The notes below the pieces were generated by a model. The model had not been told where the DNA came from and searched no databases. It saw nothing but the letters and a program-made list of their open reading frames with translations. From Acidithiobacillus ferrianus (GTDB lineage: Bacteria; Pseudomonadota; Gammaproteobacteria; Acidithiobacillales; Acidithiobacillaceae), in NCBI RefSeq assembly GCF_010378095.1, contig NZ_WNJL01000035.1:248001-312000 (forward strand): 64,000 bases of DNA, in the 5' to 3' direction. Each line of letters opens with the position of its first letter. Within the stretch, counting starts at the first letter, position 1. This document shows, one piece after another, positions 32,923-39,751 of the stretch. The translations under genes were made by a program, and so were the position numbers.

Positions 32923-34266
32923 TCAGTGGTTCATGATGCGGTCACGCAGCCTGTCCAGCTGTTGCTGCACCATGTTGCTGAGACTCTTGAGCTGTCCGGT
33001 GCCTTTGCGAACCGCCTCCCCGTCTCCCTTTTGCAGGGCGACAAGCAGCGCGACACCGAGTTTGTGGACCTGCGGATGTACCTGTTGCACCGCGATGAAT
33101 TCCGGCCACTGCGCCAGCGCGCTCTGCGCCATGCCGTCCATCCATTTCCCGAGGCGGCACTGGCGGTGATCGGGGAGTGCGCTGGGGGCGATGGTGGTAT
33201 CGTTGGCGCGGAGGGTCTCCAGGATGTGCGCGACCCACTGGACATGGTCAAACTTGGCAGCCGTCAGCCGGGTGGCCAGGGGCGCTTCCCCGCCCACGGC
33301 GGCTTCGTTGGCTTGCGCCAGTTGCTCGCGCACGGTGTCCAGGCCATGCTGGATTTCATTGAATTGCGTGGTAAAACGATCCATGGACTGCTGCAAGGCG
33401 TTCATGTGATGGCCCATGACGTCGGCGGCGGTGATTTCCTGAGCGCTGCCGTTGGCGATGTTCTGGAGGTTCTCCTGGGTTTTTTGGGCAGACCGGTTAG
33501 CCATGCCGAGTACGTCGGCGACCGTCTCCAGGGAGTCGCCGCCACGACGGAGATGGGTAATGCTCGCGGTCACACCGGATTCGACGTGACCAGCCCCTTC
33601 GCTGATGGTGATGGCCGAGTGACGAATGTCCGCGGCCGCGGCCGCGGAGCTTTGGGCCAGTTTTTTGACTTCATCGGCGACGACCGCGAAGCCACGGCCA
33701 TGCTCCCCCGCGCGCGCCGCTTCGATGGCGGCATTCAAGGCCAGCAGATTGGTCTGTTTGGCAATTTCCTGCACTTTGCCGGCGAGATTGGTGATATTGC
33801 GGGTTTGCTGCAAAAAGGCCTGCACGGTTTTGCCCATGGCGGTGACCGCCTGCTCGACGAGATCCATTTCACCAATGAGTTCGGAGAGACGTTCATTACC
33901 CATCTGTACGTCGCGCAGGGTGTCTTCCGCCAAGGTCTGATTCTCGGCTATACGTTCCGCGGTGCCCCGGATGGTCGTCACCACGGCATGGGACTGTGCC
34001 TGCAAGGAATGACTGTCGGCCTGAGCCGCCGCGAAATTTCGGTGAAAGTCCAGACCCAGCAAATGACTTTCGGTGACCAGTTCCAATGCGGCAACTTGAT
34101 GGTCGAGAACGGTGTTGCTTTGTTGCAAGCGCTTTCTCTGCCAGTTACAGAGGGGCGCGACGGTGGTCTGTAACTCTTGATCCTCCGCGATCAGTAGCGC
34201 GACCTCCGTATCGCCATCCAGGCAGGCGGAAAGTAGGGAAACGAGGGAACTGGTGTCGGCGGACAT
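32923..34266 (-). CDS. Soluble methyl-accepting chemotaxis protein with CZB zinc-binding domain
   Basis: This 447-residue receptor has no membrane helix. The N-terminal part (about 1-95) is helical and unassigned. The signalling hairpin (about 100-300) has the CheA/CheW-contact tip [25 protein letters not shown]. The C-terminal end (about 340-445) fits the chemoreceptor zinc-binding (CZB) domain: [21 protein letters not shown] and HPQVHKLG give the 3-His/1-Cys site. CZB receptors such as TlpD sense oxidants through zinc-thiolate chemistry. It follows cheV by 13 bases, so the two are probably co-expressed. Confidence 0.9.
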
Positions 34267-34279
34267 GGGACTTTACCTC

Positions 34280-35236
34280 TTAATGGGGGCGAATGACCTG
34301 GGCGACGGCGCGGGCCAAGTCATCGGGCAGGAATTTGGCGACATAACCATCAGCCCCGACGCTATGGGCATGAGATTCGTTGGCCGTACCGGAGAGCGAG
34401 GAATGAATGACCACCGGGATCTCGCGCAAGGTTTCGTGCTCTTTGATGCGCCGGGTGAGCGTGAAGCCATCCATTTCGGGCATCTCGAGGTCGGTGAGCA
34501 CCATGGCGACCTTGTTGCGCAGAGGAATACCCGCGGCTTTGGCGTCATGCGCCAGTTGCTGCAGACGGTCCCAGGCTTCCTTTCCGGTCTTCGTGCCGAG
34601 AAAGGGCAGGCCGAGGCTGCGGAGGGTTCTCTCAATCTGGTTGCGGGCAACGCCGGAGTCGTCGGCGTAGAGAATGACAGCGCCCTGAGGGATGCTGATC
34701 GAGTGCTGCTGAACCAGTTCGTCGCCCGCCTTGAAGCGGGAGGGCAAAACCTGACGGAGGATATGTTCCACATCCAGAACGAGCGCGAGTCGCGCCGTTT
34801 CCTCATTTTCGTCGAGCCGTGCCAGGCTGGTGACCAGCCCACCCACCGCGGCGCCTTCGGCGGAGAGCACGCGGCCCCATTCAAGGCGGACGATTTCATC
34901 GACATCCTCCACCGCGAAACCCTGCACGGATCGCTCATACTCGGTAACCAGCAGAATGTTGAGTCCATCGGCGCGACAGCCAACGACGGTGGGAAGATCG
35001 ATGACGGGGATGATCTGGCCACGAATGTTGGCTACGCCCATGACGTGCTCGGGAGCGCCGGGCATGGGGGTAATCTTGGGCATCACCAGTGCCTCGCGGA
35101 CCTTGAACACGTTGATGCCGAAAAGTTCCCGGCTGTTGAGTAGCTGATCTTCGCCGAGGCGGAATACCAGCAGTTCAAATTTATTCGTGCCTGCAAGCTG
35201 GGCGCGCTCATCGACTTCGCGTAATATCTGGCTCAT
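34280..35236 (-). CDS. cheV: CheV, CheW-receiver coupling protein
   Basis: This 318-residue protein has an N-terminal CheW domain (about 15-165; ELLVFRLG, GVANIRGQIIPVIDLP) and a C-terminal receiver (about 185-315) with the phospho-aspartate in VLTDLEMPEMDGF and the lysine in YVAKFLPDD. CheV couples receptors to CheA and tunes this by phosphorylation. No cheW is in the window, so CheV may be the main adaptor for the local receptor. The lysine motif reads AKF rather than KPF. It is 164 bases downstream of the ODP gene; I see no clear promoter in that gap. Confidence 0.93.
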   Translation of the reverse strand: MSQILREVDERAQLAGTNKFELLVFRLGEDQLLNSRELFGINVFKVREALVMPKITPMPGAPEHVMGVANIRGQIIPVIDLPTVVGCRADGLNILLVTEYERSVQGFAVEDVDEIVRLEWGRVLSAEGAAVGGLVTSLARLDENEETARLALVLDVEHILRQVLPSRFKAGDELVQQHSISIPQGAVILYADDSGVARNQIERTLRSLGLPFLGTKTGKEAWDRLQQLAHDAKAAGIPLRNKVAMVLTDLEMPEMDGFTLTRRIKEHETLREIPVVIHSSLSGTANESHAHSVGADGYVAKFLPDDLARAVAQVIRPH

Positions 35237-35400
35237 GAAAATCTCCTGTCAGGATGAGCGGCCATCTCGTCCGAAAGTGTCTCTAAAGGGTCAATCATTT
35301 TTTGAACGGTGGTTTCCAAATGCGGGATCGGTCCTGGCGGTCTTCCCCGATGCCATGCCTGGCGGTGGAACCCTTCGGTCTCCGTCAACCGGCGGGCATT

Positions 35401-36153
35401 TCAAGGTCGGATGCCCATGCCAACGGTCAGTTCGTCGAACCAGTTTAAAAAGCGCTGCACATTCTCCCCGCTATAAATGGCGCCATGCTGTGGACAGAGG
35501 TGCTCGATCTCCAGTTGGCTCACGCGATTGATCCAGTCCTTTTTCGCCGCATTGGAAGGCATCCAGCGCTGGTGAAAATATTTTGCCTTGGCGATATGCT
35601 CGTCGAAGGCGCGTCCGGTTCGATCTCTGCGGCCTACCCACGCATCATGCCCCGGTGGCAATAGCGCGGCACCGACATCGCCGGAAAACAGTACCTTGGC
35701 CTCGGGGTCGTAGACGTGGAAATTCGCTGAAGAATGCAGATAATGGGCCGGGATGAACTCCAAGCGACGTCCGCCGATGAGCACGTCTCCCCCCTCGTCC
35801 GGAATGTTCTGCAGGGGTGCTTCAAGTGCGCCATAGTGGCGAATGAAACCCTCCCAAAGTTTGGGGATATGCCACTGGATCTGCGCATTGCATGCATGCC
35901 AGAGCGGCAGGCTGGAGGCAATGTCCGGGTCCTGGTGGGAAACAAAAGCCGCCTTTAGGCTGCTGGGCGGTATCACCTCGACGAGGGCGGCGAACACCTG
36001 CGGAAAGACTTCAAATCCGCCGGGATCGAGGATAAGGCTTTGCCCGTTGGACTCCATCACGTAGACATTGGCATCGATGACGCGGCGCTCTTCCTGATCA
36101 TAGAGAATCCACCAGCGATGGCTGCCGGCTTCAAATATCGGTGCTGCTTTCAT
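35401..36153 (-). CDS. ODP-type di-iron metallo-beta-lactamase-fold protein
   Basis: This 250-residue protein has a metallo-beta-lactamase fold related to flavodiiron proteins but without a flavodoxin domain. Candidate ligands are H73-x-D75-x-D77 in SHQDPDIASS, a His in AHYLHSSANFHVYDP, Asp in LFSGDVG and His in PQHGAIY. The fourth residue of the usual HxExDH motif is Ile, as in the oxygen-binding di-iron proteins (ODP) that feed chemotaxis in Treponema. It overlaps a mini-receptor-like gene by 23 bases and lies just after cheA. I infer an oxygen-sensing input to chemotaxis; metal and oxygen binding are untested. Confidence 0.85.
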   Translation of the reverse strand: MKAAPIFEAGSHRWWILYDQEERRVIDANVYVMESNGQSLILDPGGFEVFPQVFAALVEVIPPSSLKAAFVSHQDPDIASSLPLWHACNAQIQWHIPKLWEGFIRHYGALEAPLQNIPDEGGDVLIGGRRLEFIPAHYLHSSANFHVYDPEAKVLFSGDVGAALLPPGHDAWVGRRDRTGRAFDEHIAKAKYFHQRWMPSNAAKKDWINRVSQLEIEHLCPQHGAIYSGENVQRFLNWFDELTVGMGIRP

Positions 36154-36751
36154 ACGCTAAGCTCTCCAGTTGATGGCGATAAGTGCGGATGGCGTTGGAT
36201 ACGGTGCGTACCGCCTCACCCATGTCGCGTGAAACGCGCATCAGCGGGGCGCCCGTGTCTTCGGCCAATGCCGCTTCGATACGGCCATTGGTCACCACAT
36301 ACTCCTGTTCCTCAATGCCTTCTTGCAGGACATCCACCGTGGCGATGAGACGAAGCAGTATTTTCCGTGCCTCGACCTCTTCCCGGGCAATGGTGTCCCG
36401 CCATCGCGTCCGGATGTTCTCGAGACTGGCGCAAATCTGCCCATATTGCGCCATGGCCTGGGCGATGGCGCTAAACGAGGCCACGAAGCGCTGGTGCTGG
36501 AGAATACGCATATGCGCCTGGATCAGGGGGGCGATGGTCTCCTGCAGATGGGACGCGGATTCCTTGAGGTTGGCGGCGCGTTCGCGGAAGGCCTGGGCGA
36601 CCACACCGTATCCGGCCAGCGTGTTGCCGTGGCGCTTGACCAGCACCATGGCGTTCAGGGCCCGGCGATCGATCTCGCGCAGGGATTTTTCGATGCTCTG
36701 GCGGGCGACGAAGGAGGCGTCGACGACTTGCATGATGTGCTGAATCTCCAT
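36131..36751 (-). CDS. Mini-receptor-like helical chemotaxis protein
   Basis: This protein of about 206 residues is all helical with no membrane segment. Residues 31-59 (ALNAMVLVKRHG, then GYGVVAQAFRERA) align without gaps to the receptor tip of the soluble receptor encoded nearby, with 11 of 29 identical including ALNA, R, G, G and VVA. It therefore looks like a truncated chemoreceptor signalling tip lacking a sensor and the conserved E/Q-rich contact motif. It overlaps cheA at TGATG and the ODP gene by 23 bases, so all three are translationally coupled. A TTG at 36754 is an alternative start. I infer a bridge between ODP and CheA. Confidence 0.75.
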   Translation of the reverse strand: MEIQHIMQVVDASFVARQSIEKSLREIDRRALNAMVLVKRHGNTLAGYGVVAQAFRERAANLKESASHLQETIAPLIQAHMRILQHQRFVASFSAIAQAMAQYGQICASLENIRTRWRDTIAREEVEARKILLRLIATVDVLQEGIEEQEYVVTNGRIEAALAEDTGAPLMRVSRDMGEAVRTVSNAIRTYRHQLESLAYESSTDI

Positions 36752-38844
36752 CAAGCGGCACCTCGCTGGGTCGGGAGGGTTCTGGCCACGGTGGCTTGTT
36801 CCAGGACGCGACCGATCAGCGTGCCCGGGTCCAGGATGAGGACGACCTGGCCCTTGCCGGAAATGGTCGCGCCTTGATACCAGTTTCGCTCGGCCAGGAA
36901 ATCGATGGGTTTGACCACCGAATCCTCATTCCCGAGCACCTCTGAAACCATGAACAGGCCACGTTCGGTGAGGACGCCCTCCATGGGCTCGGAGCCCAGG
37001 CGTAGAGGGCGTTCGTGGAGCAGGGCGCCCAAGTCCACCATCGGTGTGACCAGGGTGTCATCCACCCGGTACACGCTGCGGCCACCCATGCGATGGATTC
37101 GGTGCTCCTGGATGTCCAGGAGACTGTCGATACTCGAGATGGGTAGCGCATAGATTTCCCGGCGCAACCGCAGATAAAGCACGGGTAGCACCGCCATGGT
37201 CAATGGAAATTCCATGGCGATGCTGGTACTGAGACCCAGCCGGGTTTGAATGTCGAGGCGACCACGCAGTTTACGCACGGTTTCTCTGACGACATCCATG
37301 CCGACGCCGCGGCCGGAGAGATCGGTGGCTTGATCCTTGGTGGAGAAGCCGGGGCGAAAGATCAGTTCCAGGGCCTCCTGTTCCGAGAGGCGGGCGGCCT
37401 GCTCCTGGGTGATGACGCCCTTGTCCATGGCTTTTTGGGTCACAAACTGGCGATCAATGCCGCAGCCGTCGTCGGACACTTCAATGCGTACCTTGTCGCC
37501 GAGGTGGATGGCGGCCACGCGGATGGTGGCTTCGCGGGATTTGCCACCGGCCTGGCGCACTTCCGGTAGCTCGATGCCGTGGTCGAGACTGTTGCGGATC
37601 AAATGCGTCATGGGACCAGAGAGGGCATCGACGACGGTTTTGTCGATCTCGACTTCCTCGCCGACGATGTCGAGTTTGACTTCCTTACCGAGCTGCCGGG
37701 AGGCATCGCGCACCACGCGGGGCAACTGCTGGAAGAGTCGTTTGCAGGGTTGCATCCTCAGGCGCATGACCGTGCTCTGGAGATCGTTGACGGTAAGGTC
37801 CACTTCACGGGCGATGCGCGCCATATCCTCGTTTTCTTCACCCAGGCTACTGACTGCCGACGCCAGGCGATTGCGCAGGAGAACCAGTTCACCGACCTGA
37901 TTCATCACCGCGTCGAGACGCAGCGCGTCGACGCGGAGGGTGGTGTCGGCGGCCTCCGGGATGTTCTGCGCGCGCGCGCTGGCGGTGGAGTTCGCCACCG
38001 GCACCGGCGTTGCGGGCAACACCGCCTGTGCATTGAGGTTCTGGATGGGAAGACGGACAGGGGATGCGGGCGCGTCGGCGGTTCTGGCGGGTTGCGCCTG
38101 CGTGGCGGGTTCCGGAGCGGCGTGTCCCGGCGCCTGACCGCCATAGAGTTGATCCAGCACCCGTTCGAATTCTTCCGGGCTGATTTCGTCTCCCGCGAGG
38201 CAGGATGACTCCGGGGCATCGGTGAGGCCGGGAGCCTGGTTACCGTAGAGGGTGTCGAGGACGGCTTCAAATTCGGCTTCACTGATTTCGTCGTTGCCGT
38301 CCGGCGCCGAACGGCTGCCGGTATCGTTACGCTCAACGTAGACGCCGTGGTGACCGTCGACGGTGGTCCGCCGACTGGCCAAGAGAGTGGCTTCCGCGGG
38401 TGGACAGCGGGTGGCGTCCATGCCGAACGCGCCTGTTTCTGCGCTGGCATCTTGCGGGCGGGGCGCTTGTCCGGCGGCAAGTTGCTGAATGAGCAGACCG
38501 AGATCCCGGGGACCGGGTGTCGGATTATCGCCATGACCCAGTTGCTGCAACATGTCATCGATGACGTCCAGGCCCTTGAGAATGGCGTCTATCATGTTGG
38601 CGGAGAGGGTCAGCGTGTGCGAACGTAGCTTGTCCAGGAGGTCTTCCAGGTGGTGTGTCCAACTGACGAGGTGCTCCGCCTCCAGAAATCCCGCTCCACC
38701 TTTCAGGGTGTGAAAGGCCCGGAATACCGACGCCAGGATTTCATCGTTGCCTGGATCGGCCTCCAGGCGGAGGGTGTTCTCCTGGGCTTTTTCGAGGAGT
38801 TCGCGGGCCTCGGGAAGGTAGTCCTGCAAAATATCCATGTCCAT
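36751..38844 (-). CDS. cheA: CheA, chemotaxis histidine kinase
   Basis: This protein of about 697 residues has a P1 HPt domain with the phosphorylated histidine at about H45 (FRAFHTLKGGAGF), a long P1-P2 linker, P3 dimerisation helices, P4 ATPase (HLIRNSLDHGIE; VSDDGCGID; GRGVGMDVV) and a P5 CheW-like domain. The linker carries two related acidic motifs, DEISEAEFEAVLDTLYG (about 185-203) and DEISPEEFERVLDQLYG (about 218-234). It phosphorylates CheY. ATG 38844 has GGGGA upstream; a TTG at 38850 overlaps the cheZ stop. Its end overlaps the mini-receptor gene. Confidence 0.95.
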   Translation of the reverse strand: MDMDILQDYLPEARELLEKAQENTLRLEADPGNDEILASVFRAFHTLKGGAGFLEAEHLVSWTHHLEDLLDKLRSHTLTLSANMIDAILKGLDVIDDMLQQLGHGDNPTPGPRDLGLLIQQLAAGQAPRPQDASAETGAFGMDATRCPPAEATLLASRRTTVDGHHGVYVERNDTGSRSAPDGNDEISEAEFEAVLDTLYGNQAPGLTDAPESSCLAGDEISPEEFERVLDQLYGGQAPGHAAPEPATQAQPARTADAPASPVRLPIQNLNAQAVLPATPVPVANSTASARAQNIPEAADTTLRVDALRLDAVMNQVGELVLLRNRLASAVSSLGEENEDMARIAREVDLTVNDLQSTVMRLRMQPCKRLFQQLPRVVRDASRQLGKEVKLDIVGEEVEIDKTVVDALSGPMTHLIRNSLDHGIELPEVRQAGGKSREATIRVAAIHLGDKVRIEVSDDGCGIDRQFVTQKAMDKGVITQEQAARLSEQEALELIFRPGFSTKDQATDLSGRGVGMDVVRETVRKLRGRLDIQTRLGLSTSIAMEFPLTMAVLPVLYLRLRREIYALPISSIDSLLDIQEHRIHRMGGRSVYRVDDTLVTPMVDLGALLHERPLRLGSEPMEGVLTERGLFMVSEVLGNEDSVVKPIDFLAERNWYQGATISGKGQVVLILDPGTLIGRVLEQATVARTLPTQRGAA

Positions 38845-38846
38845 GT

Positions 38847-39335
38847 TCAAATCCCCAATTCGGCGAGCAGGGCGTCTACTTCGTCTTGATCGACGCTGGG
38901 ATTGGCGTCTTCGCGCGCGTCCGTCCGTCCGGCGACGTTCGGGTTGGGTTCCAGGCCGATTTCGGCCAGGGTCAGACGAATGCGTTCTTCGACTGCCTGC
39001 AGGAGGGCGATGGCTTTTTTTAGCCGTTGACCGGCAAGATCTTGCCCCTGCTGGCTGGCCAGAATGGTGAGCAGGGCGCTGTCAATGCGTTCGAGCGCTG
39101 CGTCGATGAAGGTGTGGTCGGCGCTGCGAATGTCATTGACGGCATCCTGGGCACGCTCGACGGCGGAGAGCGTGGCCATGGTCTGCTCTTCGGTGAGGCG
39201 CAACGCTTCCTCCAATGGGTTTTGCGCATCGGAGAGATGCTCTTCCGCGGTATTGGCAATGCGTTTCAGACCCTCGCGGAGGAGTAGCTCGGCCTCGCTC
39301 AGCAGGCGCCCGGGATGGGGTGCGTGATCGTTCAC
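38847..39335 (-). CDS. cheZ: CheZ, CheY-P phosphatase
   Basis: This 162-residue protein is shorter than enterobacterial CheZ (about 214) but keeps both functional parts. The helical hairpin has the catalytic glutamine region [16 protein letters not shown], and the C-terminal CheY-binding peptide reads [14 protein letters not shown]. It dephosphorylates CheY-P to end the tumble signal. GTG 39335 overlaps the cheY stop (GTGA). The frame is open to 39569 inside cheY but homology begins at 39335. Confidence 0.92.
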
Positions 39336-39751
39336 AATAGGCCTCTCTGGGCGGCTTGCAGGCGCTTGAAAACGGCGTCGAGCTTTTCTCGAAGGGTGTC
39401 GGCGGTGAAAGGTTTGACGATATAGCCGTTTACTCCAGCCTGAGCCGCTTCCAGAATATTTTCCCGTTTGGCTTCCGCCGTGACCATGAGCACCGGGATA
39501 TGTTTGAGCTGCGCGTCCGCACGAATGGTGCGGAGCAGATCGATGCCCTGCATGTTGGGCATGTTCCAATCGGAGACGACAAAATCGAAAGGGCGACTGC
39601 GCAGTTTTTGTAGTGCCTGCACACCATCCTCGGCTTCATCGAAGTTAATGAAACCCAGTTCTCTCAGGAGGTTGCGTACAATCCGGCGCATGGTGGAGAA
39701 GTCGTCCACCACGAGAATGTGGATGCCTTTGTCGACCTGATCTATTCCCAT
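39332..39751 (-). CDS. cheY: CheY, chemotaxis response regulator
   Basis: This 139-residue single receiver domain has the acidic pair D16-D17, phosphorylation site D61 in [11 protein letters not shown]91 in MVTAEA and K113 in VKPF. The sequence WNMP with NLLRELGF is typical of motor-binding CheY. CheY-P binds FliM. The upstream AGGAGGAG is about 11 bases from ATG. It heads the leftward cheY-cheZ-cheA-mini-receptor-ODP group behind a sigma-54-like promoter. Confidence 0.96.

Follow-up and report, generated by a model that had tools for sequence, protein, structure and literature searches.

Oxygen-binding di-iron proteins (ODPs) bind oxygen as a stable peroxo adduct. In Treponema denticola, the ODP TDE2498 is described as coupled to the sensorless receptor TDE2496, and deletion of the ODP is reported to alter the ordering of CheA in chemoreceptor arrays (PMC7666581). 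Operons in which ODP genes are combined with genes for methyl-accepting chemotaxis proteins (MCPs), in two gene orders, are recounted in a paper of 2020 (PMC7319448). Since both the Treponema pair and such operons are on record, the pairing of an ODP with a receptor is, as a kind, already known. Here we focus on a chemotaxis locus of Acidithiobacillus ferrianus, located in a stretch of 64,000 nucleotides (contig NZ_WNJL01000035.1, positions 248,001 to 312,000; the whole stretch is called the window below), in which a 206-residue helical protein, named MID, is encoded between cheA and an ODP gene and appears to contain two segments related to the signaling tip of MCPs.

In the receptor trimers described in PMC4692393, one subunit of each dimer lies at the trimer axis and the other at the periphery, where CheA and CheW bind; because the two subunits are identical, conventional mutants cannot assign a residue to one position or the other (PMC4692393). 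We think it rather likely that MID represents an asymmetric pseudo-dimer of receptor tips built naturally as one chain, and that it provides the output of a sensor for oxygen or iron whose input half is the ODP. If this holds, a natural chain with two diverged tips would display the division of labor between axis and periphery directly, oxygen sensing by ODPs would extend to further Pseudomonadota, and a receptor-like partner missed by the standard Pfam cut-off would be at work in acidophiles living on oxygen and on iron or sulfur. Other bacteria also carry the MID-ODP pair, which may serve to guide cells by oxygen.

MID and its ODP neighbor

The genes for CheA, MID and the ODP overlap head to tail, as the initial annotation of this sequence had recognized: the stop codon of cheA and the start codon of MID share one base (TGATG), and the 3' end of MID, at 36131, overlaps the ODP gene by 23 nt (all coordinates are positions in the whole window, where the cluster from cheY to the MCP gene lies entirely on the minus strand). 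The MID start used here is the ATG at 36751, as in relatives; an in-frame TTG is also present at 36754.

The downstream gene had been proposed to encode a metallo-beta-lactamase-fold protein of the ODP type, with an HxDxD pattern and no fourth histidine as found in flavodiiron enzymes, and this proposal holds. The protein matches Pfam family PF19583 (E 9.9e-67, 225 bits; curated cut-off 27.2) and, in a search of PDB sequences, the solved ODPs 6qrq (E 7.7e-59) and 6qnm (E 2.7e-43). By flavodiiron numbering, its ligands are taken to be the six residues H73, D75, D77, H140, D159 and H223 (the first three within H73-x-D75-x-D77-I78), a set that is invariant in 17 of 17 aligned ODPs; at the position which would be that of the fourth histidine, the window protein carries Ile78, and this histidine is absent from all 17. 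Judged by sequence, membership of the ODP family is secure. A second ODP of the same genome is encoded on contig 15 (L106, 3505-4350) and is of the kind without a MID. In one genome assembled as a single contig (G016), the ODP frame (L009, 775-1517) matches in two pieces lying in different frames, and the MID is intact.

For MID itself, an ungapped 29-residue match to the tip of a nearby receptor had been noted. The match is real, with 11 identities between residues 31-59 of MID and residues 176-204 of the MCP encoded at 32923-34266; taken alone it is marginal, since 42 of 1000 shuffled MID sequences reach the same identity. The same two proteins give E 0.048 in BLASTP, the score against Pfam MCPsignal (PF00015) is 17.1 bits, under the curated cut-off of 34.6, and a search of PDB sequences with MID alone reaches Tm14, a soluble receptor of Thermotoga maritima, at no better than E 0.07. 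Within the window alone, the resemblance to an MCP tip would thus be called weak or marginal, and it is made firm by the relatives. Pfam found no sensor domain in MID, in agreement with the annotation, and no sign of Hpt or CheW, so that a relationship to either was rejected. An NCBIfam scan of the window's MID and ODP brought no gain, and one of the MID family gave scattered MCP and coiled-coil matches.

Two tip-like segments in one chain

At the level of profiles, MID appears as a relative of MCP signaling tips, with two tip-like segments in each chain; of the single-tip mini-receptor that had been suggested, the receptor relationship therefore stands and the single tip does not. A profile of 43 aligned MIDs (alignment A3) retrieves 15 PDB sequences at E <= 0.001, of which 13 are receptors, with Tm14 as the best match (chain 3g6b, E 5.1e-14). 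The most divergent row, the partner at L067, was excluded from this alignment, and the A3 profile still finds it at E 3.3e-10. The second conserved block of MID (YVVTNGRIEAAL...APL..V) also resembles an MCP tip, and one and the same tip stretch of MCPs aligns, ungapped, with the N-terminal half and with the C-terminal half.

The strength of both resemblances depends on the sequences included. Comparison of a near-family profile with an MCP profile by hhalign is no more than suggestive, with E 0.0012 for the first half and E 0.059 for the second. With 44 MID rows and a reference profile from 18 MCP sequences, the scores are 71.4 for the N-terminal half against MCPs, 51.0 for the C-terminal half against MCPs and 33.2 for one half against the other. 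None of 300 column shuffles (maxima 24.2, 17.3 and 18.2, respectively) and none of 300 heptad-block shuffles (49.5, 40.1 and 29.4) reaches these values, and with the halves reversed the scores fall to 12.7 and 16.4. Restricting the alignment to the 29 distant rows gives 71.6 and 53.7, and restricting it to the 15 near rows 30.8 and 19.1; the near-family comparison of either half with MCPs was not convincing until the distant members were joined. In held-out tests, the 28 distant rows were split at random, one half was joined to the 15 near rows to make a profile, and this profile found 14 of 14 of the other half in each of ten runs; by these tests and both kinds of shuffle, a chance similarity between MID and MCPs was rejected.

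The two segments differ at positions of known function. In MCP tips, a Glu and an Arg form locks between dimers (PMC8144572), and a Phe is described as acting as a switch (PMC12871147); among the 18 reference MCPs, 16 carry the Glu and 16 the Arg. Tip 1 of MID lacks the trimer-contact Glu in 43 of 43 rows, has Arg or Lys at the other contact in 38 and keeps Phe or Tyr at the switch position in all 43. Tip 2, by comparison, has the Glu in 38 of 43 rows, lacks Arg/Lys in 33 and carries Leu at the Phe position in 39 rows of the 42 that are not gapped there; Arg/Lys and Glu occur together in tip 2 in 10 of the 43. In the near family, the Glu/Arg split between the tips, with the Glu of tip 2 kept, is found in 41 of 41. 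Five rows have no Glu in tip 2; in four of them the Arg/Lys of tip 1 is missing as well, and these may represent a single event. Gly42 and Gly47, at the turn positions of MCPs, are present in 100% of the 15 near rows and in 86 and 82% of the 28 distant ones. Because the Glu, Arg and Phe positions differ in this way, the two tips have probably diverged in role, in the way that the two subunits of a receptor dimer play different parts according to their position in the trimer (PMC4692393).

Occurrence of the MID-ODP pair

The co-occurrence beside cheA that the initial annotation anticipated across genomes is found. Of the 29 family genomes, 23 have both MID and cheA (E <= 1e-20), and the other six have neither. 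A scan of genome contigs with MID gave 32 loci in Acidithiobacillus and its kin, in Thiomonas and in records titled as metagenome-assembled genomes (MAGs) of Acidobacteriota. Together these make 58 loci (26 + 32, many on the same contigs and the window's own included), with 40 distinct MID proteins besides that of the window. An ODP gene lies directly downstream of MID in 58 of 58, and cheA directly upstream in 56; the two remaining loci represent a single contig, which stops short of cheA. Three genomes (G026, G017 and G005) carry a second, diverged cheA-MID-ODP cluster (L024, L025, L026). In the Acidobacteriota-titled records with the cluster (L042, L043, L044, L046, L049), MID identity is 56-60%. 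In a sample of that phylum, MID was found in 1 of 247 genomes, this one being the seed genome; MID thus looks rare in Acidobacteriota, and its presence in a few MAGs looks like horizontal transfer or a binning error.

Beyond the near family, MID goes with one group of ODPs. ODP matches above the cut-off occur in at least 155 of 369 genomes of the class, from which loci were fetched for the matches of about E 1e-55 or better and for one fragment. The 104 distinct ODP frames used to count partners were split at 240 bits by a profile of the window's type of ODP: a MID lies directly upstream in 30 of 30 frames at or above this score and in 1 of 74 below it, the exception (L205) having an ODP frame of 175 residues. 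The MID profile used for this count was built with most of those rows included; independent checks are given by the held-out tests above and by the near-family profile, which alone finds 19 of the 30 partners under E 0.01. In a tree of 120 ODP rows, a quick one with long-branch warnings and with frames of under 150 matched residues excluded, the 47 MID-linked rows fall on one side of a single branch (SH-aLRT 99) and the 73 others on the opposite side.

Searches started from distant members agree with this picture in their strongest matches. A search with the distant G200 MID matches 123 of 369 genomes at E <= 0.001, mostly through frames of MCP length, and the 11 matches under E 1e-8 (window and query included) each adjoin an ODP. 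A phylum-wide search with the distant MID profile matches at least 142 of 299 genomes; among the matches listed, two are strong (G733, E 8.6e-44; G920, E 3.6e-39), the next has E 4.9e-11 and most of the other rows are open frames of MCP length. A MID-like frame of 288 residues in G062 (L210, 3120-3983) adjoins no ODP among the matches listed.

Possible mode of action and alternative explanations

Should MID be a pseudo-dimer, two tips that are otherwise supplied by two separate MCP subunits would sit, diverged, in one chain of ~206 residues, with tip 1 keeping the VVA/PIT surface, the trimer-contact Arg and the Phe/Tyr switch position, and tip 2 keeping the trimer-contact Glu. The ODP, in its iron-peroxo or reduced state, would bind MID, and an altered packing of the MID helices would be passed to CheA (with CheV or CheW), at which MID would be inserted beside ordinary MCPs. 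A broader version, which we hold only tentatively and would sooner doubt than defend, is that such proteins are recurring, hard-wired asymmetric pseudo-dimers, with one tip for the CheA/CheW side and the other for the trimer axis, which join MCPs in mixed trimers and feed the oxygen or iron signal of a di-iron protein into CheA, apparently without a sensor, membrane or adaptation part of their own.

Several results weigh against the pseudo-dimer. Two AlphaFold models of the window's MID as a single chain, from 41 and 43 sequences (pLDDT 89.2 and 92.9), agree on helices at residues 3-101, 108-162 and 168-204; the hairpin expected in this protein is thus predicted at tip 2 only (turn at 163-167), and the first hairpin is unsupported by prediction, since the helix 3-101 runs through tip 1 without a turn. 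Foldseek found no match to either model at E <= 0.001, its top entries being designed helix bundles and not receptor tips; for one model, a PilJ chemoreceptor chain stood at rank 11 (TM 0.28). All of the ten distant MIDs scanned stay below the Pfam MCP cut-off, with one of them lacking any MCP match at E <= 0.1, and the held-out-test profiles also match some ordinary MCPs at E < 1e-5, so that detection outside ODP neighborhoods is not specific. From the helix lengths, the turn of tip 2 would lie level with tip 1, with the N-terminal helix not folded back; the straight helix across tip 1 may be a hairpin missed by the model, or may reflect a strand-swapped dimer. The latter would make MID an extended or strand-swapped helical adaptor, with N-terminal helices exchanged and tip 1 as a hinge, which is an alternative in shape, compatible with a role between ODP and CheA. 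That both models keep the helix unbroken at high confidence argues for it, as does the subunit swapping described for engineered single-chain receptors (PMC4692393), but the models are of a single chain and from few sequences and the glycines at the MCP turn positions are retained, and we regard this shape as somewhat unlikely. An ordinary sensorless, homodimeric receptor similar to Tm14, with one working tip and a generic coiled coil as its C-terminal half, seems unlikely to us: it is favored by the rank of Tm14 in the PDB search, where the first tip of the profile aligns within chain residues 70-205, by the higher score of the first half and by the start of the best Pfam stretch in that half in eight of the nine distant MIDs with an MCP match, yet in the ninth (L187) this stretch is the second half, the C-terminal half exceeds all heptad-block shuffles and aligns on the tip, tip 1 lies off center near residue 43 of 206, and the near family keeps the tip-2 Glu throughout.

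A further point against the pseudo-dimer acting on CheA comes from the wider neighborhoods, surveyed for 32 ODPs of the MID-linked group in stretches of 9.8 to 18 kb with che queries that did not include CheD. MID lies directly upstream of the ODP in 32 of 32, and 22 of these loci are outside che clusters within the stretches seen; 19 gave no match to the che queries used, several of their stretches stopping at contig ends. Outside che clusters, L256 and L262 have a further receptor-like frame nearby (called an MCP by Pfam in L262) and L257 a receiver protein. MID and ODP could, on this evidence, be a two-gene signaling or storage module apart from chemotaxis, whose place in a che operon is incidental in Acidithiobacillus. 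The unlike neighbors would fit such a module: of ten neighboring proteins scanned with Pfam, Ser/Thr kinases are found in the like-built L254 and L266, and the others, a pyrophosphatase included, share nothing obvious. However, ten of the 32 loci do lie in che clusters, and these are of different builds: eight are of a cheA/MCP/cheW/MID/ODP/cheR/cheB kind with varying order (L248, L253, L264, L269, L270, L273, L275, L278; no cheA was seen within the stretch of L270) and two, L276 and L277, are of the window's kind, cheY-cheZ-cheA-MID-ODP-MCP-cheV. Together with the agreement of MID and cheA in 29 of 29 family genomes and the relationship of MID to receptor tips, this makes a module apart from chemotaxis quite improbable in our judgment.

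The gene cluster in the window

The minus-strand set of the window comprises cheY, cheZ, cheA, MID, ODP, cheV and an MCP gene (Table 1). The cheY frame has tblastn matches upstream of cheZ in the loci of some relatives. In many relatives an MCP gene lies between ODP and cheV (L027, 9858-10601; L031, 5445-6113; L034, 9888-10406; L048, 9955-10596), and none is present there in the window (35237-35400), L028, L030 and L039, which suggests a loss or gain of this receptor. The genome of the window (G000) encodes four MCPs above the Pfam cut-off, one CheR and four CheW domains; contig 24 carries the CheR, one separate CheW and a second CheA, and the remaining CheW domains are parts of the two CheA proteins and of CheV.

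Table 1. Features of the cheY-to-MCP cluster, in window coordinates
Feature	Position	Strand	Basis
cheY, 139 aa	39332..39751	-	Open reading frame; name from gene position and from CheY-like homologs found there in some relatives
cheZ	38847..39569	-	PF04344 CheZ, E 5.7e-10
cheA, histidine kinase	36751..38850	-	Hpt, H-kinase_dim, HATPase_c and CheW domains above cut-off
MID, 206-aa putative two-tipped mini-receptor-like protein	36131..36751	-	PF00015 sub-threshold; family profile matches MCP signaling domains
MID tip 1 (predicted), residues 26-62	36566..36676	-	ALNA...R40.G42....G47Y48GVVA; without trimer-contact Glu
MID tip 2 (predicted), residues 148-184	36200..36310	-	YVVTNGRIE159AA...L170..V; without trimer-contact Arg
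ODP, oxygen-binding di-iron protein family, 250 aa	35401..36153	-	PF19583, 6qrq, ligand set
cheV (CheW + receiver)	34280..35236	-	CheW and Response_reg above cut-off
MCP with C-terminal CZB zinc-binding domain	32923..34266	-	MCPsignal E 1.1e-30; CZB E 7.8e-10

Comparison with known systems

If MID counts as a receptor, the ODP gene of the window adjoins a sensorless receptor gene, as in the Treponema-type pair. The initial annotation held the pairing to be undescribed; with TDE2498/TDE2496 in print, this applies to the divergent partner family, for which our literature search found no account of a two-tipped, sub-threshold ODP partner. What appears to be new is the MID family, together with the split between its tips and its link to a single group of ODPs, the natural single-chain proteins of PMC4692393 standing outside this comparison. 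Some MID-ODP pairs may already figure, under MCP, in the primary ODP paper (PNAS 2019).

The two systems have in common that a di-iron protein of the ODP family is encoded with a receptor homolog without a membrane or sensing part. TDE2496, which is compared here by its description only, is presented as a homolog of MCPs that can modulate CheA (PMC7666581); MID, unlike it as described, stays below the Pfam MCP cut-off, has 206 residues with two asymmetric tips and is encoded directly after cheA. Tm14 (PDB 3g67/3g6b) resembles MID in its length of 213 residues and as its best profile match, and is described as having no ligand-binding domain and said to lack canonical methylation sites (PMC12871147). 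The first tip of MID aligns to the tip of Tm14, whereas the second tip-like half and the short first arm set MID apart.

Two signaling units in one protein are known from other settings. Single-chain receptors are reported both by design and in nature, and an engineered single-chain Tsr signals (PMC4692393). DosM, like MID, combines two signaling regions in one protein without a sensor, and is described as the structural scaffold of double-layered arrays (PMC9321776), while MID accommodates both tips in ~206 residues. With the engineered Tsr~Tsr, as reported, MID shares the two signaling units per chain, and it differs in being far shorter, in having diverged tips between which the Glu and Arg contacts are split and in being tied to an ODP gene.

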